A stretch of 24,773 nucleotides of DNA, from the IMG/VR virus record IMGVR_UViG_3300024433_000049, positions 1 to 24,773 of that record; one strand, 5' to 3'. This document shows positions 742 to 14,278 of this stretch, piece after piece; within the stretch, counting starts at the first letter, position 1; every line of letters starts with the position of its first letter. Source of the DNA: a virus. The translations under genes were made by a program, and so were the position numbers. The notes below the pieces were generated by a model. The model was not told the origin of the DNA. It saw only the letters and a list, made by a program, of their open reading frames with translations, and made no database searches.

Positions 742-754
742 GTTAAAATTTAAC
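742..754. promoter_or_regulatory. Perfect palindrome GTTAAA-A-TTTAAC upstream of portal promoter
   Basis: A 13-base perfect inverted repeat is centred at 748, 13 bases before the -35 box and 48 bases before the portal ATG. The same palindrome, differing only in the central base, stands at the identical distance from the promoter at 10108. It is probably a binding site for a dimeric regulator. The position just upstream of -35 suits an activator, but a repressor is possible. Confidence 0.6.
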
Positions 755-760
755 AATATG

Positions 761-789
761 TTGAAAAAAAACGAAAACTATCATATAAT
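761..789 (+). promoter_or_regulatory. Sigma70-type promoter for portal gene, leaderless
   Basis: TTGAAA (761-766), a 17-base spacer and a perfect TATAAT (784-789) form a near-consensus promoter. The portal ATG begins at 796, only six bases after the -10 box, where transcription would be expected to start. No Shine-Dalgarno sequence precedes that ATG. Both facts point to a leaderless mRNA. Confidence 0.75.
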
Positions 790-795
790 TACGGT

Positions 796-2160
796 ATGGC
801 AGAATTACAAAAAGCTAATAGCAAGAAAATAGAAGAGGGGATTAATAAAGCTTTTATCTCAGAGGCGTCAAAAATTACAGGGTGGTATGATGAGATGCCA
901 TTCGACCCTAATGAGGTTTTGGGAGTCAGGTCAAGCTTCAAAACTAAAGAAGAGGCTGTGCGGAAAATGGATGAAGGCGATCCGACACTTGCCGGGCTAA
1001 AAGAAACCATGCTTGCTGCAATTTTGGGACAGGCGGATGAAATAAAATCTGATTCAGACGATAAGGGAGAAAAAGAATTTATTGATGAGATGTTTGGAAG
1101 AATTTCAAAATTCAGAGATAAGAAAAAAAATATGCTATCTTCCCTATTTATAGGGAATTCGTTTACCGAATTGATATACGCACAGGAAACCATAAATGGC
1201 CGTACCGTATGGGGGTTAGATGAAAGCTTAGGCGGGCTAATCGTTCGCCCACCATCAAGCTTTTGTTTTAAGCAGAAAGAGGACGGAACATGGGATTTGT
1301 TATACACGCCTTGCGATGGGAATATATTTATTGAATCTTGTTTTGTGGGAAATGAAATAGTTTTAGATTCCAGGAAGTTCAAGGCGATGACATATAATGC
1401 GCAGTTCGGAAATCCTATAGGGCGCGGGATTTACAATGATATTTATAATTATTGGTGGCTTAAGAAAGAAGAGGTCAAGCTGTGGGGATTGCTGGGTGAA
1501 GTTTTTGTATCGCCAAGCAAAATAATAACTAAAAAAGAAAAAGAAGGAAATTTTACCACGGAAGAAAACGAGACACTTGAGGAGTACGGTAATAATCCGC
1601 GAGCAAACACCACCATAATTTTGCCAGATTCACAAGTTGAAGTCGTGTTTCTTAATCAGAATCCAAAAGACCCCGGCGATGCTTACAATAATTTCATCAT
1701 GTTCTGCAGTCTTTCCATGGCATATAGAATCCAGGGGCAGGGATTAGCCCTAAATGAATCATCCGGCAGCCAGGCTAAGGAAAAAGTCAGGATGAAACTA
1801 TTTAATTACCTAACTCAATCCTATATCAAAAGTTTTGAAGATTTTATAAATGATGAAATTATAAAACAGCTCTGCGATCTTAATTTTGAAAACCCTGCCT
1901 ATCCAAAATTTTCAATAGTATTACCGGAAGCCCCGGATCCGAAAGAATGGGTTGAAGCCATGGAGAAAGCGACAGCATTGGGTGCGGAAATACCACGGGG
2001 ATGGTTTGAAGATAAATTGGGCATACCGGATCAGAAGGACGGAGAAGATATATTGAAGGTTCCTGAAAAGCAGACCAGCCAGACGTTTGCTAAGTATTTA
2101 GAAGACATAGAAGAGAGGATGCAGGTATATTTTCGAGATGAAAAATATCTTACTGAGTAA
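796..2160 (+). CDS. Phage portal protein (Mu gp29/DUF935-like)
   Basis: The product is a 454-residue portal, the dodecameric ring at the capsid vertex through which DNA enters and to which the tail joins. Family features are an acidic helical N-terminus, the segment FIGNSFTELIYA followed by a wing region with GLDESLGGLIVRPPSSF, the NPIGRGIYNDIYNYWWLKK stretch (portal proteins typically have NPxGxG plus an aromatic helix here), and a C-terminal helical domain with IKQLCDLNF and a DKLGIP-type end. It sits directly after the terminase, as expected. The ATG at 796 has no ribosome binding site and lies at the predicted transcription start. The residues after about 420 (KYLEDIEERMQVYF) form a short charged tail. 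The portal call is strong; the DUF935 assignment is from memory of the family pattern. Confidence 0.85.
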   Translation: MAELQKANSKKIEEGINKAFISEASKITGWYDEMPFDPNEVLGVRSSFKTKEEAVRKMDEGDPTLAGLKETMLAAILGQADEIKSDSDDKGEKEFIDEMFGRISKFRDKKKNMLSSLFIGNSFTELIYAQETINGRTVWGLDESLGGLIVRPPSSFCFKQKEDGTWDLLYTPCDGNIFIESCFVGNEIVLDSRKFKAMTYNAQFGNPIGRGIYNDIYNYWWLKKEEVKLWGLLGEVFVSPSKIITKKEKEGNFTTEENETLEEYGNNPRANTTIILPDSQVEVVFLNQNPKDPGDAYNNFIMFCSLSMAYRIQGQGLALNESSGSQAKEKVRMKLFNYLTQSYIKSFEDFINDEIIKQLCDLNFENPAYPKFSIVLPEAPDPKEWVEAMEKATALGAEIPRGWFEDKLGIPDQKDGEDILKVPEKQTSQTFAKYLEDIEERMQVYFRDEKYLTE

Positions 2161-2164
2161 ATAA

Positions 2165-2189
2165 ATTTACTTCCAGGCCATAAGTAAAT
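2165..2189 (+). terminator. AT-rich hairpin after portal gene (possible weak terminator)
   Basis: ATTTACTT (2165-2172) pairs perfectly with AAGTAAAT (2182-2189) around a 9-base loop. It starts five bases after the portal stop and ends 11 bases before the next promoter, so it may separate the two transcription units. The stem is AT-rich and no clear U-run follows, so termination would be weak. Confidence 0.3.
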
Positions 2190-2200
2190 AATCTTTAGTG

Positions 2201-2229
2201 TTGAAATATTAACATAATTATGTTATAAT
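2201..2229 (+). promoter_or_regulatory. Promoter of the HTH/accessory operon, with 16-bp operator palindrome in its spacer
   Basis: TTGAAA (2201-2206), 17 bases and TATAAT (2224-2229) form a near-consensus promoter. The spacer contains the perfect palindrome TAACATAATTATGTTA (2210-2225), which runs into the first two bases of the -10 box. A protein bound there would block RNA polymerase, so repression is the natural reading. An ATG at 2236 lies six bases after the -10 box, again giving a leaderless arrangement. Confidence 0.72.
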
Positions 2230-2235
2230 GGATAT

Positions 2236-2271
2236 ATGAAAAATAATTTAGGGAGCAAATATGACACTTGA
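2236..2271 (+). CDS. 11-residue leader peptide, leaderless
   Basis: The short ORF MKNNLGSKYDT begins at the predicted transcription start of the promoter at 2201. It reads through the GGGAG (2251-2255) that serves the next small ORF and stops inside that ORF (TGA 2269-2271). Ribosomes on this peptide would therefore pass over the next ribosome binding site, a layout that fits translational coupling. Whether the peptide has any function of its own is unknown. Confidence 0.4.
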   Translation: MKNNLGSKYDT

Positions 2272-2317
2272 TGAAATAGGAGAAAACATTTCACGGAAAT
2301 TAAGGAGCAAGAAATGA
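2261..2317 (+). CDS. 18-residue peptide overlapping the HTH gene
   Basis: MTLDEIGENISRKLRSKK has a proper ribosome binding site (GGGAG, five bases before the ATG). Its stop codon overlaps the start of the HTH gene in an ATGA arrangement (2314-2317). It also carries the AAGGAG (2302-2307) that serves the HTH gene. The peptide is basic at its C-terminus. It may be a translated leader or a real micro-protein. Confidence 0.4.
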   Translation: MTLDEIGENISRKLRSKK

Positions 2318-2541
2318 GCCAAGCATTCACTAACTGGATTCAACAAAAAGAGAAAGAACGCTATTTCGTATATGAGATAGCAGAAATGGCCGGGCTTTCC
2401 TGGTCAACATTCAGGCTACATCGGGAGCCAGGAAAAGTCAAGATGAGTAAAAAGACAGCATTGAAAATCCATGAAGCAACCGGTATTAGCATGGAAGATT
2501 TGGGGTTTGCTGAATTATTGAGAGATCAAGGGAGATCGTGA
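2314..2541 (+). CDS. Small helix-turn-helix DNA-binding protein
   Basis: This 75-residue protein resembles small Cro/CI-type regulators. Residues about 17-45 (FVYEIAEMAGLSWSTFRLHRE) fit a helix-turn-helix with the turn at AGLS, and residues 47-64 (MSKKTALKIHEATGISMEDL) resemble the following helices of an XRE-like fold. The start at 2314 is supported by AAGGAG six bases upstream and by the ATGA overlap. It is the first substantial gene after a promoter with a palindrome in its spacer, so it may repress its own operon. It is also the only candidate DNA-binding regulator visible for the shared palindromes at 742 and 10089. Both roles are inference. Confidence 0.6.
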   Translation: MSQAFTNWIQQKEKERYFVYEIAEMAGLSWSTFRLHREPGKVKMSKKTALKIHEATGISMEDLGFAELLRDQGRS

Positions 2542-2873
2542 TGTGCAATGCGATAATTACAGATAGTGAATATGAATATCGAGAAGCGAAAGAAAGATAC
2601 TGGCACCTTACAAAAGACATACATAGGGATTTGATTGATCTGTTTTCACGTGCATCAAAAATTACACACATATATGATAAGAATGGAGACTTCTGTAAGT
2701 TTGGATATAACAAAGAAACTCAAAACAAAATTGATGAATTGCGTAAATTTGATAAAATTGCATTTGGTATATGCTTTAGGAAACTTTTAGACAGAGATAG
2801 GAGCGGGGAGCCGATAGGCAAATCACCCAATGAGTTGCTGGGGTGGGTGGATGAAAAGGAGGTAGGGAAATGA
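2541..2873 (+). CDS. Hypothetical protein, 110 residues
   Basis: No family is recognised. The N-terminal half is rich in charged and aromatic residues with predicted helices (EYEYREAKERYWHL, HRDLIDLFSRASK). A segment IYDKNGDFCKFGYNKETQNKIDELRKFDK follows. AAGGGAG (2528-2534) is better spaced for the ATG at 2541 than for the GTG at 2538, which overlaps the HTH gene stop. The gene ends with an ATGA overlap with the methyltransferase gene, so the two are probably co-translated. Confidence 0.65.
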   Translation: MCNAIITDSEYEYREAKERYWHLTKDIHRDLIDLFSRASKITHIYDKNGDFCKFGYNKETQNKIDELRKFDKIAFGICFRKLLDRDRSGEPIGKSPNELLGWVDEKEVGK

Positions 2874-3322
2874 CCAAAATCAGAGGTTACGCAGCCATAG
2901 GGCTTTATTCCCCACAAAACGATCTAAATGTAGGCGCAGCCATGAGAGCCGTTGGTTGCTACAGGGCTGCGTTTTTGGCTATATCCGGCGGCAATGCCGA
3001 TAAGTGCGGGGCGACCGATACTGCGAGTATGTGGCGGGATATTCCGTTTATCAGGGTGGACGATCTGCACAATATAATTCCCTATGATTGCATACCGGTT
3101 GCCGTTGACCTGGTGGACGGAGCCGAATCGTTAATTGATTATAAGCATCCTGAACGGGCATTTTATATTTTCGGCCCGGAAAACGGAACGCTTAGCAAGG
3201 GTGTAATCTCATGGTGTCGGGACAAGGTCATGATTCCGACTTGCGATTGCATGAACTTAGCCGCAACGGTCAATGTAGTACTATATGACCGAATGGCGAA
3301 AAGGCAAAGGGAGGTAGCATGA
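2870..3322 (+). CDS. SPOUT (TrmH/SpoU-like) RNA 2'-O-methyltransferase
   Basis: At 150 residues this is close to the minimal TrmL-type SPOUT enzyme, which forms a dimer with a trefoil knot and transfers a methyl group from S-adenosylmethionine to a ribose 2'-OH, usually in tRNA or rRNA. The three family motifs are present: motif 1 at residues 20-27 (NVGAAMRA, with the Asn and the Arg expected to be catalytic), motif 2 at 101-106 (FGPENG) and motif 3 at 122-140 (IPTCDCMNLAATVNVVLYD). The usual Ser-Leu-Asn of motif 3 reads Cys-Met-Asn here, keeping the Asn. The start has a clear AGG-rich ribosome binding site and overlaps the upstream stop. The RNA target cannot be read from sequence. A host-modification or anti-defence role is speculation. 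Confidence 0.82.
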   Translation: MTKIRGYAAIGLYSPQNDLNVGAAMRAVGCYRAAFLAISGGNADKCGATDTASMWRDIPFIRVDDLHNIIPYDCIPVAVDLVDGAESLIDYKHPERAFYIFGPENGTLSKGVISWCRDKVMIPTCDCMNLAATVNVVLYDRMAKRQREVA

Positions 3323-3609
3323 AAAAAATAACGAGCTACATAATGGGTTGGATTGCGCACTTTGGATTAAGGTTAACCTGCCGCTACCTATGGCACAAGA
3401 TAAGGCTATTTTTTAAATACGGCACATTCAGGCTGCACAAACAGGGTCTTATTGAAACCAAAAGAGAATACCAGCGGCTTCAAAAGGCTCTTTGTGAACT
3501 GATAATCGGAGGTAATGAAGCTTGTGGGGCACTAAAAGGAGTTGGAATTCAACTCGATAAACTTGCGAAATATACAAACCAAATACGCTGGCCTGGATTC
3601 AGATGCTAA
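3319..3609 (+). CDS. Hypothetical basic protein, 96 residues
   Basis: No family is recognised. The N-terminus (residues 1-35) is basic and amphipathic with many aromatic residues (YIMGWIAHFGLRLTCRYLWH), which could associate with a membrane but is not a clean transmembrane helix. The middle (residues 45-66) is a helical charged stretch with EYQRLQKALCELI. The start overlaps the methyltransferase stop by four bases (ATGA) and is preceded by GGGAGG, so translation is probably coupled to it. Confidence 0.6.
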   Translation: MKKITSYIMGWIAHFGLRLTCRYLWHKIRLFFKYGTFRLHKQGLIETKREYQRLQKALCELIIGGNEACGALKGVGIQLDKLAKYTNQIRWPGFRC

Positions 3610-3794
3610 GATTAACGGGTGAAAATTACGAAATTGAAGGTGTGTTATGTTTTTCTGCATTTAGCCCAGAGTGTGAGTTCGATGCGGAACCTACCTGCAG
3701 GCCGGGGTGGCTTGAAAAACTAAAGGGTATCAATACTAATGATAATTACGAATCATTGTTGGCAGGTTTAATAACAGGGGCAATTGATGAATAA
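3603..3794 (+). CDS. Hypothetical acidic protein, 63 residues
   Basis: No family is recognised. It overlaps the previous gene by seven bases and has no clear ribosome binding site, so translation is likely to depend on coupling. The sequence is acidic and holds two cysteines near its centre (CFSAFSPECEFDAEPTCRPGW has a CX7CX7C-like spacing). It ends with LLAGLITGAIDE. The stop region contains the ribosome binding site of the next gene. Confidence 0.5.
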   Translation: MLRLTGENYEIEGVLCFSAFSPECEFDAEPTCRPGWLEKLKGINTNDNYESLLAGLITGAIDE

Positions 3795-3804
3795 GGAGGT
3801 AATC

Positions 3805-4068
3805 ATGCCATATAATTGTAGATGCGGTTTGATTGCGGTCAATGATTTTGTTGCAAGGCCTGAAAAAAATCATAAAATAATAATTAGGAATACTGAAAAT
3901 GATAATGAGATTGTGGATGAGATCAGTGCGACTGCAAGTAAAGTTGATAAATTTTTTAATCAGTCAGAGAAAATATCTTTTAATTTTGGCGGTGAATTGA
4001 GAATTGTTGAAAAGCAAGAATTGATTGACGATAAACTTACTTGGTACATAAGCACCGTGAGGCCATAA
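3805..4068 (+). CDS. Hypothetical protein, 87 residues
   Basis: No family is recognised. The frame is open from an ATG at 3784, but the strong AAGGAGG at 3793-3799 and the ATG five bases later at 3805 fix the likely start. The first residues, PYNCRCGL, have two closely spaced cysteines. The rest is a mixed beta/alpha pattern ending in LTWYISTVRP. Its stop overlaps the start of the next gene (TAATG). Confidence 0.6.
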   Translation: MPYNCRCGLIAVNDFVARPEKNHKIIIRNTENDNEIVDEISATASKVDKFFNQSEKISFNFGGELRIVEKQELIDDKLTWYISTVRP

Positions 4069-4232
4069 TGGAAACTATGGAATATTATCCCTACCAATGG
4101 GTTAAGTGTGATCATTGTAAAAAAACCATTATCGTCGGCAGTATGGACTGGTTTCCCATGTCGGAAACTACAGGCGCGCCACTTTGTTATAAATGTTGCC
4201 ATAAAAAGATTAATCGGAAGTTAAGAAAATAA
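4068..4232 (+). CDS. Small zinc-ribbon protein, 54 residues
   Basis: Two CxxC pairs, CDHC early and CYKC late, are about 30 residues apart, as in a treble-clef or zinc-ribbon fold binding one zinc ion. The C-terminus is strongly basic (CHKKINRKLRK), which suits nucleic-acid contact. The frame is open from 4041, but the ATG at 4068 (GAGG upstream, overlap with the previous stop) is the better start. Role unknown. Confidence 0.6.
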   Translation: METMEYYPYQWVKCDHCKKTIIVGSMDWFPMSETTGAPLCYKCCHKKINRKLRK

Positions 4233-4266
4233 ATGGAGTGGCAAGCAATGAGGATAAAGTAAGAAA

Positions 4267-4458
4267 ATGAAAAAACGGAAAAAGCATAACAAGAAAATAA
4301 TTAAAGACCTTTATTCATGGTTGCATGAACGTGGCGAAATAGGGAACGCAGACCTGGAAGACAAGCCCAAAATTGATAATAGTTGCGAGATTCCGGTACA
4401 TAATTTTCGACCCGAACTATTCGCCCCAGGCAATGTAAAGGATCATTTTGAGTATTAG
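4267..4458 (+). CDS. Hypothetical protein, 63 residues
   Basis: No family is recognised. The first 15 residues are almost entirely basic (MKKRKKHNKKIIKDL), and the rest is acidic to neutral with several prolines. A ribosome binding site is poorly defined (AAGTAAG just upstream), so the start is less sure than for its neighbours. Nine bases separate it from the exonuclease gene. Confidence 0.5.
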   Translation: MKKRKKHNKKIIKDLYSWLHERGEIGNADLEDKPKIDNSCEIPVHNFRPELFAPGNVKDHFEY

Positions 4459-4467
4459 GAGAAAAAA

Positions 4468-5013
4468 ATGAACTTATTTTTCATAGACACGGAAACGACC
4501 GGATTCGATCCAAAGAAACATGAGATTTTTGAACTTGCTTTTACAATCGAAATTGATGGAGTAACGCATTGCAAAATGGAGTTATTTATGCGCCCGGAAA
4601 AGTGGGATAATATAAGCGAAAAGGCTCTTGCGGTTAATGGATGGACGGTGGAGAAGTTGAGGGCATTGCCGGAAAGATCGCAATTCCATAAACTATTCCG
4701 ATCTATACCGTTATTTTCTCCGCCGCTAACTATAGTCGAATACAGCAATAAGTTTGATTATAAATTCTTAAAAGCATTTCACAAAGAGACTGTTGGTGAG
4801 CGTGATTTTAATTTAAATTTCAAAAAGCAATCAATCAATGTTCTTTCCCTTGCAAAAAAGAAGCTGCCCGGCTTGAAATCTCATTCTCTTAAATCGGTGG
4901 CAAGGCATTTAGGTATCCCGGCAGATGATAGTAAGCTGCACGGTGCAGGGTATGATCGGGATTTATTGATGCACGTTTACCATAAATTGAAATACAGGAG
5001 GGATAAAAAGTGA
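4468..5013 (+). CDS. DnaQ-like DEDDh 3'-5' exonuclease
   Basis: This 181-residue protein has the full DEDDh exonuclease signature: ExoI at residues 7-12 (DTETTG, acidic D7 and E9), ExoII around 94-97 (NKFD) and ExoIII with H158, A160 and D163 (HGAGYD). The family uses two metal ions to remove nucleotides from 3' ends of DNA or RNA. The polymerase III epsilon subunit, RNase T and many stand-alone phage enzymes belong to it. The length fits a bare nuclease domain. AGGAG lies well placed before the ATG. Being among head genes rather than replication genes is unusual. It could trim host or phage nucleic acid, or act in repair. Its substrate is not readable. Confidence 0.85.
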   Translation: MNLFFIDTETTGFDPKKHEIFELAFTIEIDGVTHCKMELFMRPEKWDNISEKALAVNGWTVEKLRALPERSQFHKLFRSIPLFSPPLTIVEYSNKFDYKFLKAFHKETVGERDFNLNFKKQSINVLSLAKKKLPGLKSHSLKSVARHLGIPADDSKLHGAGYDRDLLMHVYHKLKYRRDKK

Positions 5014-5210
5014 AAATTGAGATAACGCTTTATTTCAGCGGCTATAAAAAGCGGGATGAAATTGAGGAATCATGGTATAGGTATTTTAAAATTCTCGGCT
5101 TAAGTTTCAAGAGAACCCAAACGTCACGTGGCGATTTTTTCGATATTTTTGTGGAGCTACTTGGGTTTGATTTTATATTGACTATTAAGTGGAATCAAAA
5201 ACATAAGTAA
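5010..5210 (+). CDS. Hypothetical protein, 66 residues
   Basis: No family is recognised. It begins with GTG, overlapping the exonuclease stop (GTGA), with AGGAGGG about seven bases upstream. The pattern of aromatic and charged residues (FSGYKKRDEIEESWYRYFKILGL) and the strands near the end (FVELLGFDFILTIKW) suggest a small alpha/beta protein. Coupling to the exonuclease gene suggests, but does not prove, a related role. Confidence 0.55.
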   Translation: MKIEITLYFSGYKKRDEIEESWYRYFKILGLSFKRTQTSRGDFFDIFVELLGFDFILTIKWNQKHK

Positions 5211-5235
5211 TGAGTATTCAAAAAAGGAGAAATAA

Positions 5236-5523
5236 ATGAGCAATCCAACAAAGAAACCAAAACCACCGGTTGAAGAAAAACCAAATATTTCTATAAGTAA
5301 AATAATTAATGAAAAATTTGAAAAGAAATTAGTCGAATTGGTAAGTGAATATTACAGGATACCGACTGGTATAATTTATCACCTTTCTCCCTATATGTCC
5401 GATACTGAAAATTACATCAAAATCAATTTCCCGGCGAAAGCCAAAGCCGAAAGAGAGCATGGAGATAGCCATGTTTTTTATACCGATAAATACGGAAAAG
5501 TTGAAAAAAATCCCGGTTCATGA
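5236..5523 (+). CDS. Hypothetical protein, 95 residues
   Basis: No family is recognised. It starts after AAGGAG with standard spacing. The N-terminus is Pro/Lys-rich and probably unstructured (NPTKKPKPPVEEKP). A helix (IINEKFEKKLVELVSEYY) and a region ending in HVFYTDKYGKVEKNPGS follow. Confidence 0.6.
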   Translation: MSNPTKKPKPPVEEKPNISISKIINEKFEKKLVELVSEYYRIPTGIIYHLSPYMSDTENYIKINFPAKAKAEREHGDSHVFYTDKYGKVEKNPGS

Positions 5524-5568
5524 CATAATGAAGACATGAATAACGAAAACAAATCAAAGGAGTAAAGG

Positions 5569-5817
5569 ATGATAATTCTAAAAATTATTTTAGTTTTGTG
5601 TGTTGCGGAAATTTATCAAATCGTAATTTTGACAATTGCGAACCGGGTTGATAGGTTAAATCATGGCTTATATGATTATTTTTATGATAAGCATGGCTCT
5701 GGTAATAAAGAAAAATCAATGAGAGAAAGAATCAAAACTGATTATGTCCGCCGACTGGTAGCTACTTGTATATTCTCAATTTTCTTGGCATATAAAACGG
5801 TTTGGTTTTTGTGGTGA
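5569..5817 (+). CDS. Small membrane protein with two hydrophobic segments
   Basis: The 82-residue product has hydrophobic stretches at residues 2-24 (IILKIILVLCVAEIYQIVIL) and about 63-81 (LVATCIFSIFLAYKTVWFLW), joined by a highly charged loop with KEKSMRERIKTDYVRR. This is a two-pass inner-membrane topology, with the basic loop likely cytoplasmic. AAAGGAG lies before the ATG inside a nine-codon ORF (5536-5565, MNNENKSKE). A holin is one possibility, since two-pass holins are of this size, but no endolysin gene is beside it and the segments are not typical, so function is left open. Confidence 0.5.
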   Translation: MIILKIILVLCVAEIYQIVILTIANRVDRLNHGLYDYFYDKHGSGNKEKSMRERIKTDYVRRLVATCIFSIFLAYKTVWFLW

Positions 5818-5820
5818 GGC

Positions 5821-6081
5821 GTGAAAGCTAAAGCAACATATGGTAGTAATTTTAAATCAGAATTGGTTGAAATTGGTGATATAAAGATTGGTGATATTTA
5901 TAGGGATAAGAATTTATGTCCAAATTGCAGGCAGCAAATGAATGAAATTTCAATACCACAGACAGGCACCACATCCACAACGAATGATGGTTTAGAAAGA
6001 TTTCAATGCCCCAATTGCCTAAGTGTAGTATGTATGAGTAGGCCAGTTAAAACTAAACGGAGGAGTTTAGTCAGTGCCTAA
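5821..6081 (+). CDS. Zinc-ribbon protein, 86 residues
   Basis: Two CPNC motifs about 30 residues apart (residues 33-36 and 64-67) form a classic zinc ribbon. The GTG start lies three bases after the membrane-protein stop, with only a weak GTGAGG upstream, so the start is uncertain. The C-terminus is basic (PVKTKRRSLVSA) and overlaps the next gene by eight bases. A nucleic-acid-binding role is possible but not shown. Confidence 0.6.
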   Translation: MKAKATYGSNFKSELVEIGDIKIGDIYRDKNLCPNCRQQMNEISIPQTGTTSTTNDGLERFQCPNCLSVVCMSRPVKTKRRSLVSA

Positions 6082-7117
6082 AATATCAAAAGGAATCCGT
6101 GCCCTCGAAACCATAGGAACCAGGGCTATCAATGTGGCTATTCCACTATATGGAAAGCAGACCAACCAATGGATAAAAGATGTTGAATCACAAATGGAAA
6201 GTTACGATGATTTTGACAAGCTTGAACTAACCCCACTATCAGACAAAATCAGAAATACTATTGAGAGAACCTTGCTACTATCATATTTAATTGGAAATGG
6301 GTTTGCTGAAGAGGATAAGGAGATCGAGGAAAAGAAAGATAGCCAATCCGGGTTCATATTTGATTTTATAGCCAAAAGGCAGATACAAGAGAGACAATAT
6401 GATTTTGCAATAGTTACTAAAATAGATTGGAGAATAACCGGCTTTGACCGTGCCTTAGAATTATTGAAAAACAAAACGGTTATCCCGGCTAAAGTTTTTA
6501 AGGCCGCTTCCGCCTGGATAAAATCAATAGCGTTTTCAGTACAAAGATTAGAAGACCTGAATGCCATCAGGCTAATAAAAGAATCTATCAAGAGTTCAAT
6601 CGATTCGGGTGTAGTATTTCGTGATTGGAAAAATATGGTGTTGCCTGATATATTCAGGAAAGCAGGTTATATCAAATCTAAGGCTTTGAAACTTGAACCC
6701 TGGCACCTGGAGACCGTATTCCGCACCAATCAATCAAGCGTCTATAATTCAGCACGTTTTGAAAACTTTACGAGAGATCAAAACATTGCAGCCATGGAAT
6801 ATCGGGCGGTGTTGGATGACCGGACGCGACCGGAACATGAAGCGCTTGATGGGTTTATTGCCCCTAAAGACGCGCCGATATGGGCAGATATATATCCCCC
6901 TAACGAGTATAGTTGCAGATGTACGGTAGTGCCGGTAACTATTGCCGGACTAAAATCAGGTAGGCAAAAAATATCCACAATAACTCCAAAAATAAATACT
7001 GCTAAATCAGGAGTGCATCCTGACTTCCGGGGTAAGGCAAATCTGAAAGCTATTGATGCAAGGTTGAAGAAGGCTGAAAAGGTTAAAATTAAAGAGATTG
7101 ATAAGATTGAGATTTAA
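6074..7117 (+). CDS. MuF-like minor head (head morphogenesis) protein
   Basis: The 347-residue product belongs to the SPP1 gp7/Mu gpF family of minor capsid proteins, which bind the portal and are carried into the head. The C-terminal MuF domain is clear: FRTNQSSVYNSARF at residues 216-229, then YRAVLDDRTRPEHEALDG at 243-260, and NEYSCRCTVVPV at 277-288. The N-terminal half is helical and variable, as usual in the family. The start is GTG with GGAGG about ten bases upstream. In Mu this gene directly follows the portal. Here about 3.9 kb of small accessory genes lie between them. Confidence 0.85.
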   Translation: MPKISKGIRALETIGTRAINVAIPLYGKQTNQWIKDVESQMESYDDFDKLELTPLSDKIRNTIERTLLLSYLIGNGFAEEDKEIEEKKDSQSGFIFDFIAKRQIQERQYDFAIVTKIDWRITGFDRALELLKNKTVIPAKVFKAASAWIKSIAFSVQRLEDLNAIRLIKESIKSSIDSGVVFRDWKNMVLPDIFRKAGYIKSKALKLEPWHLETVFRTNQSSVYNSARFENFTRDQNIAAMEYRAVLDDRTRPEHEALDGFIAPKDAPIWADIYPPNEYSCRCTVVPVTIAGLKSGRQKISTITPKINTAKSGVHPDFRGKANLKAIDARLKKAEKVKIKEIDKIEI

Positions 7118-7128
7118 GGAGAAAAATA

Positions 7129-7362
7129 ATGAAAGATAAAAAAATCCCAATTGATGTAATAATTCCGAATCAGGGCGAACGAGTCACCAATGCTATAATT
7201 AGTTTCAATTCAAGGGTTAACGAAGGGTACGCTAAGATCCGAGATGTTTTAATTTATAGAAGCGATTTATATAAATTGGCGTATGCTTGTACACAAATTG
7301 AAGGTGAGCATTTAGAATACTTAAATTATAAACGGGATATGGATATTGATATGGAAGCTTAA
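7129..7362 (+). CDS. Hypothetical protein, 77 residues
   Basis: No family is recognised. It starts after AAGGAG 11 bases downstream of the MuF gene. The sequence is mixed alpha/beta, with an aromatic helical second half (LYKLAYACTQIEGEHLEYLNYK) and an acidic end (DMDIDMEA). Confidence 0.6.
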   Translation: MKDKKIPIDVIIPNQGERVTNAIISFNSRVNEGYAKIRDVLIYRSDLYKLAYACTQIEGEHLEYLNYKRDMDIDMEA

Positions 7363-7373
7363 GGTGAATCAAT

Positions 7374-7538
7374 ATGACAACCATAGATAAATCAAGATGC
7401 AAGGGGATAATTAATGAAGGTGATTTGGTATTAAAAAGCAGTGCCGGTTTTTATTATAGCGCAAAGGCAATAGGGAATTTATTAGCCAGGATTGCGCCCT
7501 TGCTATCTATAAGCATTAGCCAAATTCATAGAGCTTGA
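7374..7538 (+). CDS. Short hypothetical protein, 54 residues, possibly a 5' gene fragment
   Basis: This ORF begins with ATG after AAGGTGA, 11 bases beyond the previous stop: MTTIDKSRCKGIINEGDLVL and onward, ending SISQIHRA. The +1 frame opens at 7513 within its last codons and continues without a good start into the 7576 ORF. A single indel near 7500 would join the two. It may be an intact small gene or the 5' part of a frameshifted one. Confidence 0.4.
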   Translation: MTTIDKSRCKGIINEGDLVLKSSAGFYYSAKAIGNLLARIAPLLSISISQIHRA

Positions 7539-7575
7539 AAGGAATGCGATCCGTGAAGGTGAGCTTGTTTTTTAT

Positions 7576-7824
7576 TTGGGCCTAATGAAAGATGAAGCTA
7601 TGGAGCTAACTGAAATGGCAGATGGGCTGCCTATCGAAGCGGATGATTTTGACCGCGACATATTTTTCGGCATCATGGGTGATTTCAATAACTTATTCCT
7701 ATATTATTTCCATGATGAATTTTTGAAGAGATCGGCTAAGGAAAGGCAGGATTTATTTAAAGTTTCACTAAGAAGGATTGACGAACTGCTTGTTCAAATT
7801 CACCTCGAATCCATAAACAGTTGA
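7576..7824 (+). CDS. Acidic hypothetical protein, start uncertain, possible 3' gene fragment
   Basis: An acidic helical protein of about 80 residues (MELTEMADGLPIEADDFDRD and onward). Candidate starts are TTG at 7576 and ATG at 7585, neither with a well-spaced ribosome binding site. The frame is open upstream to 7513 and reads AKFIELERNAIREGELVF, which looks coding. It may therefore continue the 7374 ORF through a +1 shift. Its last 25 bases overlap, tail to tail, the end of the leftward gene at 7800. Confidence 0.45.
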   Translation: MGLMKDEAMELTEMADGLPIEADDFDRDIFFGIMGDFNNLFLYYFHDEFLKRSAKERQDLFKVSLRRIDELLVQIHLESINS

Positions 7825-8075
7825 ATCTCATGGCTAATCACTTTCTTGACGCTTGGCAATAAATCATGAAATGAATAAACTATATCGACGATAGAATTTT
7901 TTAGCAGTACAACAAAATAAGCTTGAAATAATCCGCTTTCATTATCAACATGAAATGATACATATAGATCGTCTGAATATTCTAACCTATAGGCCGTCAC
8001 TGTACCAGATGCCGTCTTGCCGGTAACTCTCGGCTTAGTCACCATTATTTTGTCTATGATTTGTTGTTTAGTCAT
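7800..8075 (-). CDS. Hypothetical protein, 91 residues, last gene of leftward cassette
   Basis: No family is recognised. The N-terminus is helical (MTKQQIIDKIMVTK), and beta-like strands follow (YRLEYSDDLYVSFHVDN, LFQAYFVVLLKNSIVDIVY), suggesting a small alpha/beta fold. GAGAAAAG lies before the ATG. Its 3' end overlaps the rightward gene at 7576-7824 by 25 bases, so the two opposing operons converge with no space for a separate terminator. Confidence 0.6.
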   Translation of the reverse strand: MTKQQIIDKIMVTKPRVTGKTASGTVTAYRLEYSDDLYVSFHVDNESGLFQAYFVVLLKNSIVDIVYSFHDLLPSVKKVISHEIQLFMDSR

Positions 8076-8120
8076 TTTTTATCTTTTCTCATAAATATTT
8101 ATAATCACTCCACCATAAAG

Positions 8121-8807
8121 TCATGACTGCTCGTTTTCTCCTTTAACCCTTATTAATTCATTGCCTGATTGCAATATGCGGACATCGTTCTCTTTAAAAT
8201 CAAATAATTTTGAAATTCCATTGAATTTTGCCTTTTTTGCGAAGTTTTCAATTCGATATTCCCTCACCCATTCTTCCGATTCATCACAAACTATGCAGTC
8301 CGCGTATCCATCAAATTTTACTTGATAAAGACTTGCGAGTTCATTATCGATTTTTATTTGTTTGCTTTCCGTCACCATCCACGTGCCGTTCCCCTTTCCA
8401 ATAATTGTTAGCAAGTTAGTTGCACTTGAATTGAATAATTCGGTAATCAGCTTGGTTTCAAATTCATTTTCAAATATTTCATAAATTTCGCCATCTGATT
8501 TATCTGTCCATAAATATCTTGAAATTTCGGAAAATCTTTTTCCTTTACTTTGCGCAATAACCCTTACAAATCTTTTAACTTTATCAATAGCGGCTTGTGG
8601 CGTAGATTCATAGAGATCATCCCCATCTAACTTTTTGGTAATATTGATAGTGAGTAGGTTAAGCGTTTCGGATATACCACAGACCCATGAATGGCCGATA
8701 GAATCGTCGTCATTCATGATTTTTTTTTCAAAAAGCCATTCACTAACTATTTCTTCAATTTGCCTTTTATTAAAGTCAACTCTTGTTTTTACTCTTATTC
8801 TTTTCAT
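8121..8807 (-). CDS. Hypothetical protein, 228 residues
   Basis: This is the largest gene of the leftward cassette and no family is recognised. It starts after AAGGAG. Visible features are a basic N-terminus (KRIRVKTRVDFNKRQIEEIVSEW), several beta-rich stretches (LLTINITKKL, LLTIIGKGNGTWMVTE), a two-cysteine segment YADCIVCDES, and a C-terminal region ending in VKGENEQS. There are no transmembrane segments and no signal peptide. Nine bases separate it from the upstream gene. Confidence 0.6.
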   Translation of the reverse strand: MKRIRVKTRVDFNKRQIEEIVSEWLFEKKIMNDDDSIGHSWVCGISETLNLLTINITKKLDGDDLYESTPQAAIDKVKRFVRVIAQSKGKRFSEISRYLWTDKSDGEIYEIFENEFETKLITELFNSSATNLLTIIGKGNGTWMVTESKQIKIDNELASLYQVKFDGYADCIVCDESEEWVREYRIENFAKKAKFNGISKLFDFKENDVRILQSGNELIRVKGENEQS

Positions 8808-8816
8808 TTTTTCTCC

Positions 8817-9152
8817 TTATATTTTTAGATGATTCCTGATTTTACTAAAAACAAGGTTCTGTAGAGATTTGCTGAGGTCATAAAAACAACATTGCCTGGC
8901 ATATTTCCTGAGATGTTTATTTTTTTCAGTAATAGCAATTGGATAAAATTCACATGTATCGAACCTGCGGCATGACTTATCAATGCTAAACGTTAAATGT
9001 ATGTTATTGGTTAAAATCATTCTGTACCAAATCAAAAGTTTATCGGTGTATGATCTTTTAATCTTTGCGTTTTTTATCATTTGTTTATCTATCACAATGC
9101 AGTAGCCATCGTTTTTATATTTGATCTTTTCGTTTATTATGATGATAATCAT
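8817..9152 (-). CDS. Hypothetical basic protein, 111 residues
   Basis: No family is recognised. The frame is open five codons further upstream, but GGAGG followed by seven bases and an ATG at 9152 fixes the start. It begins with an isoleucine-rich strand (MIIIIINEKI), is strongly basic, and has five cysteines, including CRRFDTCEFY and QCCFYDLSK. Cysteine spacing does not match a zinc motif I know. It starts two bases after the upstream gene ends, whose last codons hold the ribosome binding site. Confidence 0.55.
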   Translation of the reverse strand: MIIIIINEKIKYKNDGYCIVIDKQMIKNAKIKRSYTDKLLIWYRMILTNNIHLTFSIDKSCRRFDTCEFYPIAITEKNKHLRKYARQCCFYDLSKSLQNLVFSKIRNHLKI

Positions 9153-9154
9153 AG

Positions 9155-9370
9155 TTATTCCCTCCACCCATCATAAATTTCAAGCCAAAATTTATAATCA
9201 GATTCGGGTTCATGTCTAATTATCAAATCATCATTCCTGGACAGTTCGATTAATTCATTAAGTTCGTTTATTTCAATTTCCCATGATTCACCTTTAGCTG
9301 TAGCATTCTCATATGGCTTCGGTGGGTTCCCGAAAAATCCGTCCGACGTTCTGCCTATTCTGAATTTCAT
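9155..9370 (-). CDS. Hypothetical acidic protein, 71 residues
   Basis: No family is recognised. The N-terminus, MKFRIGRTSDGFFGNPPKPY, is followed by an acidic helical part (EIEINELNELIELSRNDD) and a beta-like end (YKFWLEIYDGW). The start overlaps the upstream 36-codon gene (ATGA) and has AAGGG upstream. Confidence 0.6.
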   Translation of the reverse strand: MKFRIGRTSDGFFGNPPKPYENATAKGESWEIEINELNELIELSRNDDLIIRHEPESDYKFWLEIYDGWRE

Positions 9371-9477
9371 GATTTACCCTTACTGCAAACGGTTCTCATT
9401 TCTTCATCAATTTGACTGCAAACATTATCTTTGTGGACTTTTAGTTTTTCGCAAAGTTCTATTTTAATCCATTTCAT
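9367..9477 (-). CDS. Very small hypothetical protein, 36 residues
   Basis: The ORF reads MKWIKIELCEKLKVHKDNVC and ends in CSKGKS. It has an AAGGA ribosome binding site, overlaps the upstream gene by 14 bases and overlaps the next gene in an ATGA arrangement. This tight fit within the operon argues for real translation. It contains three cysteines and is basic. No family is recognised. Confidence 0.5.
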   Translation of the reverse strand: MKWIKIELCEKLKVHKDNVCSQIDEEMRTVCSKGKS

Positions 9478-9895
9478 TTTTGCTGTCCTTTGATTCCTTT
9501 ACCAGACAGGTTGGCCCTAAATATTTATTGTTAATGTAGGCTGCACCATTTTTTACTTCAATAACCGGAGGCATAAGTTTTTCATCCGGTTCGTTTATTC
9601 TTGCCCAATGAGATGCATCGTTTATTTGCCAGTCGTGGCCGTGTGCTGAATGCCATACCCGGCCAGTCTTATGATTTAAGTATTCCGCTTTGTTAAAATC
9701 CCCTATACTCGGTATCCATATCATTACCTTATCAAAAAAATTAGGCATTTTGCACCCCTCTTCGATCTTAATCCAGGGGATTCCGATTTGAATGAGTTTA
9801 AAATCTTTTATAGTGATAACAGCTTGTGGCTTGTTAATTAGATCAATTAGTTTTCTAATTTGGCCTATTTTTGATTTTCCTTTAAATACGCTCAT
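9464..9895 (-). CDS. DUF551-like domain protein, first gene of leftward cassette
   Basis: The 143-residue product contains, in its middle (about residues 58-100), the pattern VMIWIPSIGDFNKAEYLN, then W-H, then INDASHWARINEPD. It resembles the small DUF551 domain found in many phage accessory proteins (W-x-P early, a strand with VWHSAHG, then HW and a Pro end). The frame is open to a GTG at 9985, but the ATG at 9895 has a perfect TTAAGGAG site, so it is preferred. The molecular role of DUF551 proteins is not known to me. Confidence 0.6.
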   Translation of the reverse strand: MSVFKGKSKIGQIRKLIDLINKPQAVITIKDFKLIQIGIPWIKIEEGCKMPNFFDKVMIWIPSIGDFNKAEYLNHKTGRVWHSAHGHDWQINDASHWARINEPDEKLMPPVIEVKNGAAYINNKYLGPTCLVKESKDSKNEMD

Positions 9896-9981
9896 TTTAT
9901 TTCTCCTTAAATTGACGGCAAATAAGCCAGCGGCCATAATGGTCAGGGGTTTAATCCCCAAGCAAACACAGGCGCCCATGT

Positions 9982-10002
9982 TCACACTGACTCATTTACC
10001 AT
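9982..10002 (-). CDS. 6-residue leader peptide of leftward cassette, leaderless
   Basis: MVNESV begins five bases after the -10 box of the leftward promoter, in the same GGGTATGG context as the rightward leader at 10143. Its stop overlaps an in-frame GTG (9985) of the long open frame leading into the DUF551 gene. So short an ORF could occur by chance. Its position is the argument. Confidence 0.3.
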   Translation of the reverse strand: MVNESV

Positions 10003-10007
10003 ACCCA

Positions 10008-10036
10008 ATTATAATATAACTCCCTCGAAATGTCTA
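10008..10036 (-). promoter_or_regulatory. Leftward promoter of the reverse-strand cassette
   Basis: Read on the minus strand, TAGACA (10036-10031), 17 bases and a perfect TATAAT (10013-10008) form a good promoter. A minus-strand ATG begins at 10002. An ATCGTTAAA half-site lies upstream of the -35 box at 10056-10048. About 107 bases separate that leader ATG from the DUF551 gene start and contain a short GGGG-CCCC hairpin (9946-9959). Confidence 0.68.
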
Positions 10037-10047
10037 AAAAAACTATT

Positions 10048-10123
10048 TTTAACGATATTCCAGATAAGGCAGCAATTTAAAATATATCGTTAAAGTTTAA
10101 CAATAAGTTGACAAATCGTTAAA
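10048..10123. promoter_or_regulatory. Cluster of ATCGTTAAA half-sites in the divergent control region
   Basis: The 9-mer ATCGTTAAA occurs three times in 76 bases: on the minus strand at 10048-10056 and on the plus strand at 10086-10094 and 10115-10123. The second copy is also the left arm of the palindrome at 10089-10101, and the third lies in the spacer of the rightward promoter. One protein binding these sites could activate one direction and repress the other. Confidence 0.5.
10089..10101. promoter_or_regulatory. Perfect palindrome GTTAAA-G-TTTAAC upstream of protease-operon promoter
   Basis: A 13-base perfect inverted repeat, centred 13 bases before the -35 box and 48 bases before the leader ATG. 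It is the same as the element at 742-754 except for its centre, and the flanking AATA-N-GTTGA also matches. The shared block covers 25 positions with 22 identical. Confidence 0.62.
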
Positions 10124-10136
10124 ATTAGTTTATTTA
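10108..10136 (+). promoter_or_regulatory. Rightward promoter of protease/capsid operon, leaderless
   Basis: A perfect TTGACA (10108-10113) is followed after 17 bases by TATTTA (10131-10136), a poor -10 box. An alternative TTTATA lies two bases further on. An ATG begins at 10143, six bases after the -10 position. The weak -10 box fits a promoter that needs an activator, for which the adjacent palindrome is well placed. Confidence 0.6.
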
Positions 10137-10142
10137 TAGGGT

Positions 10143-10220
10143 ATGGTGATCGAAGTTAAAGAAAATGCAATACGTGCAAGGGTATATAATTCAGCAGGCC
10201 ACCGACTGGAGGTTGCATGA
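10143..10220 (+). CDS. 25-residue leader peptide ahead of protease/scaffold gene
   Basis: MVIEVKENAIRARVYNSAGH and five further residues are encoded from an ATG at the expected transcription start, with no ribosome binding site. Its stop overlaps the next start in an ATGA arrangement (10217-10220), and its last codons contain the GGAGG (10208-10212) serving the next gene. It probably acts as a translated leader or coupling peptide. A function for the peptide itself cannot be excluded. Confidence 0.45.
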   Translation: MVIEVKENAIRARVYNSAGHRLEVA

Positions 10221-11446
10221 AAAAATTAGTTGATTTTGAGTTTTTTGAAGAAGGGGACTATCGACACAAAAACCCGGCACTTGACAACGGCAAGTGGACG
10301 GAAGCAGATTTCAAAAAAGCCCACGCATACCTACAGGCAATAAACAAAGGAATCCCGGTTATACTAAACCCAAAGGATGCCCATGAAACTGAGGACAAGG
10401 ACAATGTTGCCGTCCTGGGGCGCATTAAAGAAATATGGCGGAAACCCAATGGTGTATGGAGCGGTAATGGCGAATTCTTGGAAGAAGTTGCGGATATTAT
10501 TGAGAAAAAAATGTATGATGGCAAATCTATCGGGATAACAAGAATGAAGAATGGCGATATTGTAATAGATCACATCGCCCTGTGTGGTGCGCAAAGAGCA
10601 TATCTTGAACACCTTAAGCCGAACAGTCAATCTATATTCGATTCAAGTAGATTAAAAAAATTAACGCAAGTTCAATTATTTTCATCTCAAAGCGAAGGTG
10701 ATGAAAATATTGAAATAGATTTTCGCCTAAGCGGTGGCGAAAGTGATAATGATTCAAGCGCGAATCAGGGAAATGAAGAAGGGAATCAAAGTGGTGATTC
10801 TAAAAAAACTAAAACCAAGAAAAAGGAGACAAAAACAATGAGTGATTATACAGAAGCAGATGTTAAGTTAAAAGTAAGAGAGGCGACTGATGCCCAAATA
10901 AAAGAATCACAAAGGGACGCCGACGACATTAAAAGGAAATTTACCTTAACGATTGAGGGGAAAGATACCGAAATCGGAAAGAAAGATAAGGACATAGATG
11001 CGAAGAACAACGAAATCACCTTATTAAAAGATACGATCAAAGACAAGGATGAAGAAATCAAAGGGTTTACAACTACCATTGCAGATAAAGATACCGAAAT
11101 CAAAACCCTAAAAACCAACTTTGCCAAACGCGAAGAGGATAATGTAAAACGCGAAGTAGGCTATTTCGTCCATAATTGCAGCGCAATCCCGCCCGTTGAA
11201 AAACCTGCCAAATTCAAAATGCTTTTCACGATTAGGCAGCAGAGCAAGGAAGCCTATGAAGATATGAAAAAAATAATTGGTGGAAGCGGAAACCCCCTTG
11301 CTTTCGGATTAGACAAAAACTTTACGACCGGTTCCGGCGAATACTCCGAAATCGTGAAAGAGTTTTCCGATAATTCCGGGAACGTTGGTCTTGAAATTGA
11401 CATGACGGCACTAAGCGATGAAGCACTGAAAGTTTTAGAGCAGTAA
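10217..11446 (+). CDS. Prohead protease/scaffold fusion (Mu gpI-like)
   Basis: This 409-residue protein has the layout of Mu-type gpI: an N-terminal prohead protease domain (about residues 1-145) and a C-terminal scaffold. The N-domain ends in GKSIGIT and IDHIALCGAQRAYLEHLKP, which resembles the conserved hVALTxxPAIxGLKP stretch of phage I proteins. The catalytic residues cannot be assigned safely. Residues 165-207 are a charged low-complexity linker. Residues 250-298 form seven consecutive heptads with Ile at the same place in each (253, 260, 267, 274, 281, 288, 295), a coiled coil. Protease and scaffold normally shape the prohead and are then degraded. The gene has GGAGG four bases before the ATG and precedes decoration and capsid genes, as expected. 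Confidence 0.7.
   Translation: MKKLVDFEFFEEGDYRHKNPALDNGKWTEADFKKAHAYLQAINKGIPVILNPKDAHETEDKDNVAVLGRIKEIWRKPNGVWSGNGEFLEEVADIIEKKMYDGKSIGITRMKNGDIVIDHIALCGAQRAYLEHLKPNSQSIFDSSRLKKLTQVQLFSSQSEGDENIEIDFRLSGGESDNDSSANQGNEEGNQSGDSKKTKTKKKETKTMSDYTEADVKLKVREATDAQIKESQRDADDIKRKFTLTIEGKDTEIGKKDKDIDAKNNEITLLKDTIKDKDEEIKGFTTTIADKDTEIKTLKTNFAKREEDNVKREVGYFVHNCSAIPPVEKPAKFKMLFTIRQQSKEAYEDMKKIIGGSGNPLAFGLDKNFTTGSGEYSEIVKEFSDNSGNVGLEIDMTALSDEALKVLEQ
10838..11446 (+). CDS. Internal in-frame scaffold protein, 202 residues
   Basis: Met208 of the protease/scaffold gene has its own AAGGAGA (10823-10829), nine bases before the ATG, placed exactly at the boundary between the linker and the scaffold domain. A second, shorter scaffold-only product from the same frame is therefore likely, as for Mu gpZ within gene I and Nu3 within lambda C. 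It contains the seven-heptad coiled coil and the C-terminal capsid-binding part. Confidence 0.62.
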   Translation: MSDYTEADVKLKVREATDAQIKESQRDADDIKRKFTLTIEGKDTEIGKKDKDIDAKNNEITLLKDTIKDKDEEIKGFTTTIADKDTEIKTLKTNFAKREEDNVKREVGYFVHNCSAIPPVEKPAKFKMLFTIRQQSKEAYEDMKKIIGGSGNPLAFGLDKNFTTGSGEYSEIVKEFSDNSGNVGLEIDMTALSDEALKVLEQ

Positions 11447-13777: not shown

Positions 13778-14278
13778 ATGGGTTATACGACCTATCAAAA
13801 GATAGAGGACGACGTAACGCTATACGAACTCCTAAGAGTAATCCCAAAAACCGATAGTCAAGGCATTACGATTGTCCCGGCATCCATAGACACGGATCGG
13901 ATTGACAGGATAATCGAAACCGTGTCAAATACTATCGACGGGAAGATCGGACAGCGTTACGTTGTTCCCCTAACTCAGCAAAACAGCCTAAATGCCGTAG
14001 AGTGGATAGCAAGAGCATTGGCTATATGTCAGATATACCATAAGGAATCAGGCGGCCCGGAATGGCGGCAAGCAGATTGCATTAAGGCAAGTGATGCGCT
14101 TGAAGAAATGGCAAAAGGAAAAATTGACATTCCGGATGCAACCATATTGAATGGAAAATCAGCCCACCTATGCAATCCTTATGATGACAAATACCCAAGT
14201 ATCGAAAGGCCATTTGATTGGGATAAGCAATCATGGGGCGGTGATGATACCGATTCTTCATTTATGAGAGGCGATTGA
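13778..14278 (+). CDS. gp36-like head-completion/connector protein (DUF1320)
   Basis: The 166-residue protein starts with MGYTTYQKIEDDVTLYELLR and continues with a helical segment holding DRIIETVSNTIDGKIGQRYVVPL, the typical core of DUF1320/Mu gp36 proteins, which are taken to be adaptor proteins between portal and tail. The remainder (ALAICQIYHKESG, then ASDALEEMAKGKIDIP) also follows the family pattern. The C-terminus (WGGDDTDSSFMRGD) matches the usual end of these proteins. Its ATG directly follows the previous stop. The position after the capsid genes is the same as in Mu. Confidence 0.75.
   Translation: MGYTTYQKIEDDVTLYELLRVIPKTDSQGITIVPASIDTDRIDRIIETVSNTIDGKIGQRYVVPLTQQNSLNAVEWIARALAICQIYHKESGGPEWRQADCIKASDALEEMAKGKIDIPDATILNGKSAHLCNPYDDKYPSIERPFDWDKQSWGGDDTDSSFMRGD

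Follow-up and report, generated by a model that had tools for sequence, protein, structure and literature searches.

The window analyzed here, the 24,773-base virus record IMGVR_UViG_3300024433_000049 from an uncultivated Mu-like phage, contains promoter-like sequences that are followed by an ATG at a fixed, short distance from the -10 box. This ATG-at-start geometry is real, exceeds what chance produces and is kept in related phages. Judging from the sequence, we consider it quite probable that this phage group places AUG at the start of transcripts from sigma-70-type promoters, such that full-length genes are leaderless and tiny open reading frames (ORFs) lead into genes with a Shine-Dalgarno (SD) site. 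The A of the ATG would serve as the start point, the order being 17-base spacer, -10 box, 6 (5-7) bases, ATG. From this promoter geometry it would therefore follow that the mRNAs begin with AUG and that ribosomes are recruited at the 5' end without an SD site. The virion genes of the window include a Mu-type portal (PF06074, Portal_Mu), Phage_Mu_F (MuF) and a Mu-like gpT capsid protein. The genomes compared were the window, a group of relatives (L002, L004, L007 and the 58.5-kb G002) and one distant record (G001); relatives were located via portal, terminase, MuF and one promoter block. Below, the gap is the number of bases between the -10 box and the ATG.

Promoters and predicted 5'-terminal ATGs in the window

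The promoters of the window and the reading frames associated with them are as follows.

761..789, + strand: site 1, portal promoter; TTGAAA (761-766)-17-TATAAT (784-789)-6-ATG at 796; conserved in L002, L003 and L004.
796..2160, + strand: portal gene (Portal_Mu, 454 amino acids); ATG at the predicted transcription start, without SD site, predicted to be leaderless.
2201..2229, + strand: site 2, post-portal promoter; TTGAAA-17-TATAAT-6-ATG at 2236; counterparts at L002 5256 and L007 325.
2236..2271, + strand: 11-codon ORF (MKNNLGSKYDT) that opens the predicted transcript; extends across the SD-led start at 2262.
5501..5529, + strand: fifth promoter; TTGAAA-17-CATAAT-6-ATG at 5536.
5536..5565, + strand: 9-codon ORF MNNENKSKE at the predicted 5' end; its final codons hold the SD site of the gene at 5569.
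10008..10036, - strand: site 4, minus-strand promoter; TAGACA (10036-10031)-17-TATAAT (10013-10008)-5-ATG at 10002.
9982..10002, - strand: 6-codon ORF MVNESV at the predicted 5' end, gap 5.
9464..9895, - strand: gene probably served by the minus promoter; SD site AAGGAG ahead of its ATG at 9895.
10108..10136, + strand: site 3, protease-operon promoter; TTGACA-17-TATTTA-6-ATG at 10143; block conserved in L002 and L007.
10143..10220, + strand: 25-codon ORF at the predicted 5' end; matches the N-terminus of an 80-amino-acid ORF of relatives; ATGA overlap with the next gene.
10217..11446, + strand: SD-led 409-amino-acid gene in the position of the Mu head protease/scaffold gene, its putative function being taken from gene order only.

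The original prediction, made from the window alone, had listed sites 1-4 with 17-base spacers and gaps of 6, 6, 6 and 5 bases for sites 1, 2, 3 and 4, respectively, and all of these were confirmed on the sequence; the four copies exist, and the count was incomplete, the promoter at 5501 having been overlooked. It had also stated that no ribosome binding site precedes the four ATGs and that most other genes have one, with which the calculated anti-SD duplex energies agree. No SD site lies ahead of any promoter-proximal ATG, the energies at promoter ATGs of the window and relatives ranging from +1.8 to -2.4 kcal/mol, and most neighboring genes carry one. Most other window genes tested, including the protease-position gene, capsid and MuF, gave -8.1 to -11.2 kcal/mol, with weaker exceptions at 13778 (0.3 kcal/mol), 14282 (-5.8 kcal/mol) and 17323 (-4.5 kcal/mol). 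Upstream of the portal ATG there is no in-frame start, and downstream none occurs before codon 34 (24 in L002). The N-termini of portal, MuF and the 80-amino-acid ORF are conserved with many synonymous changes, which indicates translation from these start codons.

Excess of ATG at a fixed gap

Promoter-like sites were collected with a scan for TTGACA-17-TATAAT that allowed at most 2 mismatches and ignored the downstream sequence, and the position of ATG was scored afterwards. The scan set consisted of the window, G002 and the upstream part of L002. Its 31 sites with spacer 17 yielded ATG counts of 0, 0, 2, 10, 1, 1 and 0 at gaps 3-9; the 10/31 at gap 6 compare with a baseline of 0.015 per gap, or ~0.5 expected per position (P ~2e-11), and no comparable gap-6 peak was found in this set for spacers 15, 16, 18 and 19. 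Five promoter-like sites of the window alone (at most 2 mismatches, spacer 17) have an ATG at gaps 5-7, against a shuffle mean of 0.23 (maximum 3, 200 shuffles); for the window plus relatives the figure is 13, against 0.93 (maximum 3, 60 shuffles). Two of these 13, at window 5648 and G002rc 29622, sit within ORFs and are probably chance occurrences. When loci were grouped by hand, ~10 of the 13 distinct intergenic strong promoter loci of the group, all being predicted promoters, had ATG at the predicted start.

The same scan was applied to eight control phages (lambda, Mu, TP-84, a Helicobacter prophage, TP901-1, phi11, A118 and HP1). An ATG was found at gap 6 in 4 of their 45 sites, one of which is lambda PR, and in none at gaps 5 or 7; the difference between the phage group and the controls at gaps 5-6 is significant (Fisher P=0.003). 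In the Thermus phage phiYS40, known for leaderless mRNAs, ATGs are overrepresented at gaps 5-7 (P=0.0015 over 150 kb).

AT-rich intergenic DNA could by itself yield promoter words and ATGs, the true transcription starts lying elsewhere. The window's first half contains 41 promoter-like sites, close to the 39.5 expected from shuffles, and site 3 is weak, both of which suit such an explanation; the excess at exactly gap 6 with spacer 17, the shuffles and the conservation in relatives do not. We rejected chance on the basis of the shuffles, the other spacer lengths, the control phages and the relatives, and regard it as extremely improbable, in agreement with the original prediction.

Conservation of the spacing in related phages

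The portal proteins of L002, L003 and L004 are 63-64% identical to that of the window, and their promoters retain TTGAAA-17-TATAAT-6-ATG. The six bases before the portal ATG change from tacggt in the window to tgtatt in the relatives, with gap 6 unchanged. At the post-portal promoter the ATG likewise stays at gap 6 in L002 and L007; the bases before it vary (ggatat, tatggt and tatagc across the window and relatives) while the ATG is kept, and the leader peptides are MRRNKINSVNTQGGKVGIERMA and MIRKYKIAKINNQGGHVGIERVA in L002 and L007, from which MKNNLGSKYDT of the window differs. It had been proposed that the ATGs lie at the transcription start by design, a view that loss of the spacing in related phages would have contradicted, and the spacing was found to be kept. 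The proposed GGTATGG context fared differently: it is present at sites 1, 3 and 4 and does not unite the set as a family, since relatives alter it and retain the ATG. As a shared motif GGTATGG was also rejected by count: the window has 4 copies versus 1.7 expected, only a mild excess, 4 being reached by 9 of 100 shuffles.

The counterpart of site 3 in relatives opens the 80-amino-acid ORF (L002 8866-9108), whose N-terminus MPIDIKENTIRARV matches the 25-codon ORF of the window. L002 and L007 differ in it by 9 synonymous and 3 nonsynonymous codons, which shows that this ORF is translated. Window 10143-10220 resembles a shortened form of it in which the N-terminus and the overlap with the next gene are retained. 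Where the window has site 4, the relatives carry a minus-strand TATAAT-6-ATG-TAA with spacer 18 (L002 ~8740-8806), a natural start-stop at the predicted 5' end. The gene that follows 12 bases on differs from that of the window and lacks an SD site; in L002 it is a 93-amino-acid ORF.

Further cases are found among the relatives. The terminase gene has its ATG at gap 5, this start being conserved only between the near-identical L002 and L003, and MuF, which is SD-led in the window, is predicted to be leaderless in L002 and L007 (gap 6, own promoter), the N-termini being alignable. In G002, gap-6 starts occur at an 82-amino-acid gene, a 92-amino-acid gene and a 44-codon ORF. The virion genes of the distant G001 (terminase 47%) are mostly SD-led, and one perfect promoter has an ATG at gap 6.

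Full-length genes and tiny leader ORFs

The 5'-terminal AUGs would fall into two classes. In the first, the AUG would be the start of a real gene: the portal in the window and relatives, and the terminase, MuF, the 80-amino-acid protein and two small genes in relatives. Because these genes start directly at the ATG, tiny ORFs are not the main use of the feature once relatives are counted; the earlier statement that it mostly starts tiny leader ORFs also overlooked that the site-1 ATG is the portal start itself, and its restriction to structural promoters was too narrow, given that the feature occurs beyond them.

In the second class, the AUG would open a tiny ORF (1 to 44 codons). Most of these ORFs reach the SD site or start of the next gene, either stopping there or overlapping it, and a ribosome bound at the 5' end may serve the downstream gene through coupling or as standby. 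Within the window, the ORF at 5536 runs out within the SD site of 5569, the one at 10143 shares ATGA with the next start, and the one at 2236 extends past the start at 2262; the tiny ORF of site 4 is an exception, lying ~90 bases from its SD-led gene. By promoter geometry only, a 5'-terminal AUG ahead of an SD-led gene is predicted at window 2236 and 5536, L002 5291 and G002rc 47449.

The ATG might instead be part of the promoter, as DNA or as the sequence of the initiating RNA, and mark a favored start region with no purpose in translation. A pyrimidine occupies -1 at 14 of 15 sites, and A occupies +1. Normal transcription starts have these preferences, which accord with the favored reading and would also fit this alternative, as would the retention of the ATG even where the ORF is only ATG-TAA. 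However, a preference for A at +1 leaves the invariant T and G at +2 and +3 unexplained, control phages with similar promoters lack the excess, and portal, terminase, MuF and the 80-amino-acid ORF truly begin at these ATGs. We therefore judge this explanation very improbable.

Another alternative accepts leaderless initiation for the full-length genes alone, the AUGs of tiny ORFs being by-products of chance or of copied promoter cassettes, formerly driving a leaderless gene, with no downstream effect. It is consistent with the strong SD sites that downstream genes mostly carry themselves, with the lack of conservation of the tiny peptides and with several Escherichia coli mRNAs whose 5'-terminal upstream AUG (5'-uAUG) had no effect on mutation (PMC4965119). 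Against it, the post-portal ATG stays at +1 while both the discriminator and the peptide change, and tiny ORFs occur at 4 of 5 window sites, above ATG frequency; we find it unlikely.

Some tiny ORFs could also encode leader peptides of the attenuator type, which monitor translation and regulate read-through into the downstream operon. The candidate is the 44-codon leaderless ORF of G002 (G002rc 47449-47583, in L013, minus strand), which has four consecutive Asn codons and reads across a terminator-like hairpin plus T-run, for which an alternative stem is possible. A leaderless leader ORF reported to act by attenuation in Mycobacterium smegmatis is cited in PMC9031893. This candidate is one locus in one relative, its fold z-score is only -2.4, and no such hairpin was found in the window ORFs of 6, 9 and 11 codons, where a terminator scan lists none. 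Attenuation seems quite unlikely as the role of some of these ORFs. The 44-codon ORF precedes an SD-led gene resembling an HNH endonuclease, an attenuator-like arrangement.

An extension of the favored reading, in which AUG marks the transcript start for both classes, is that the 5'-terminal AUG is a general ribosome-loading signal of the promoters, selected regardless of whether the ORF behind it has 454 codons, 9 codons or is just AUG-UAA. Every transcript would then bind ribosomes at once and hand them to its first gene. We put this forward tentatively and consider it doubtful.

Several points weigh against the reading as a whole. The transcription start points are predicted from promoter geometry, 5'-end initiation and the part that tiny ORFs would play in coupling or loading are inferred, and no host could be assigned, so that the sigma factor and the tolerance of leaderless mRNA are assumptions. 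Independent genomes are few (the window, the L002/L004/L007/G002 group and one distant record). The peptides of the tiny ORFs are little conserved, the -10 box of site 3 (TATTTA) is weak, matching at 3/6 positions, and the pooled control phages themselves show a weak gap-6 excess (P=0.02). Strong promoters without the feature also exist, at L002 425 (ATG at gap 8), G002rc 25717(-) and G002rc 35690(+) (no ATG at either).

At L002 425, L004 83 and G002rc 25717(-), the promoter hexamers are perfect or nearly so, and a GGTAACC-type repeat and an SD-led gene (MKQE...) come after them. In contrast to the ATG-first promoters, these constitute a leadered class.

Comparison with known systems

Systematic use of this mechanism at phage structural promoters had been regarded as unusual, which was overstated: leaderless phage starts, including at many promoters of a single phage, have precedents in phiYS40, Cluster O mycobacteriophages, PY54 and lambda. 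Lambda cI is a known leaderless phage mRNA. The lambda PR/cro region, with TTGACT-17-GATAAT-6-ATG and an ATG-TAC-TAA running into the cro SD site, has the layout of the tiny-ORF class, but it is one promoter only, of a regulatory gene. No lambda virion gene is known to be leaderless. Phage Mu shares the Portal_Mu, Phage_Mu_F and Mu-like_gpT families in similar order; unlike the window, it has no promoter-ATG site of this kind by the same scan.

In bacteria, leaderless genes have -10-like signals ~12 bases before the start codon and are common in some phyla (PMC3160421); at the gap-6 sites the -10 box begins 12 bases ahead of the ATG, matching the TANNNT signal of leaderless genes described there. 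A close likeness among phages is phiYS40, a tailed phage in which many genes, including late ones, are started without leaders: most of its middle and late mRNAs are leaderless (Sevostyanova et al. 2007, as described in PMC3594737). A shift in the IF2/IF3 balance of the infected host is a further mark of the phiYS40 type. In contrast to the group studied here, the gaps of phiYS40 scatter over 5-7 and it infects a member of Deinococcus-Thermus, a phylum rich in leaderless genes; the account used here (PMC3594737) does not mention tiny 5'-AUG ORFs. In Cluster O mycobacteriophages (Corndog), the SigA promoters PL1, PR2 and PL2 were predicted to place +1 on the start codon's first base, and PL2 sits in the structural operon (PMC4351075). 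These are, however, actinobacterial phages, the feature concerns 3 of 8-9 promoters, and the passages used describe no tiny leader ORFs. In the telomere phage PY54, the cI and cro mRNAs are leaderless and start at the AUG as determined by rapid amplification of cDNA ends (PMC4488713), a case of phage mRNAs starting at AUG that differs in being limited to repressor genes.

The tiny-ORF class has its likeness in E. coli 5'-uAUG mRNAs, in which a 5'-terminal AUG before an SD-led gene binds 70S ribosomes and, as in ptrB and rcnR, opens a short upstream ORF; some of these AUGs raise expression of the SD-led gene by coupling, in ptrB partly without peptide synthesis (PMC4965119). They differ in being scattered over host genes, with no rule across the promoters of one phage. 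The mechanism is therefore known already, and in this phage group its use seems to be the rule; what stands out is the regularity of the layout, its mixing with strong SD genes and the conserved 5'-AUG of the tiny ORFs.

If the favored reading is correct, an environmental phage lineage starts key virion genes (terminase, portal and MuF) leaderless and most others by strong SD sites. MuF, SD-led in one phage and leaderless in a relative, would offer a natural test of the exchange between the two modes, and tiny 5'-AUG ORFs before SD-led genes, as at lambda PR and in some E. coli mRNAs, could represent a promoter design that is used repeatedly and conserved. Such starts would be misplaced or missed by gene callers that demand an SD site or a minimum ORF length.

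Searches for further relatives and the host

A host search with portal or terminase patterns detected no relative among the genomes of 84,980 species (one genome each). Virion proteins of named phages were only distantly similar, and comparisons of a methyltransferase and an ATPase were uninformative. The capsid-protein scan for relatives gave no match, and the tail-protein alignment returned G002 again and nothing further. L008 and L011, retrieved by DNA pattern, appear unrelated and were discarded as relatives. Rfam gave no match within the window.

Shared sequence blocks and neighboring genes

One sequence block is shared by two of the promoters.

749..766, + strand: block TTTAACAATNNGTTGAMA, overlapping the -35 box of site 1; a second copy at 10096-10113 overlaps the -35 box of site 3.

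Among window promoters, TTTAACAATNNGTTGAMA occurs only at the portal and site 3, and it recurs at the portal promoters of relatives; it might serve a subset of promoters as a regulator site or an UP-like element. An operator GTTAAANTTTAAC, to which the block TTTAACAATNNGTTGAMA is related, was unsupported as common to all promoters, being found at the portal promoter only among the loci compared; site 3 of the window also has GTTAAAGTTTAAC at 10089. A second promoter-like site at 10097 overlaps site 3, whose weak -10 box is replaced in relatives by TATATA or TATAAT. Across the -35 box and spacer of site 3, GTTGACAAATCGTTAAA (window 10107-10130; L002 8829-8845; L007 ~3900-3917) is conserved beyond the needs of the hexamer, and TCGTTAAA is also found upstream of the minus promoter at 10036. 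Between portal and MuF, at 2870-3322, lies a gene with a SpoU-family RNA methylase domain (PF00588, E=2e-12).

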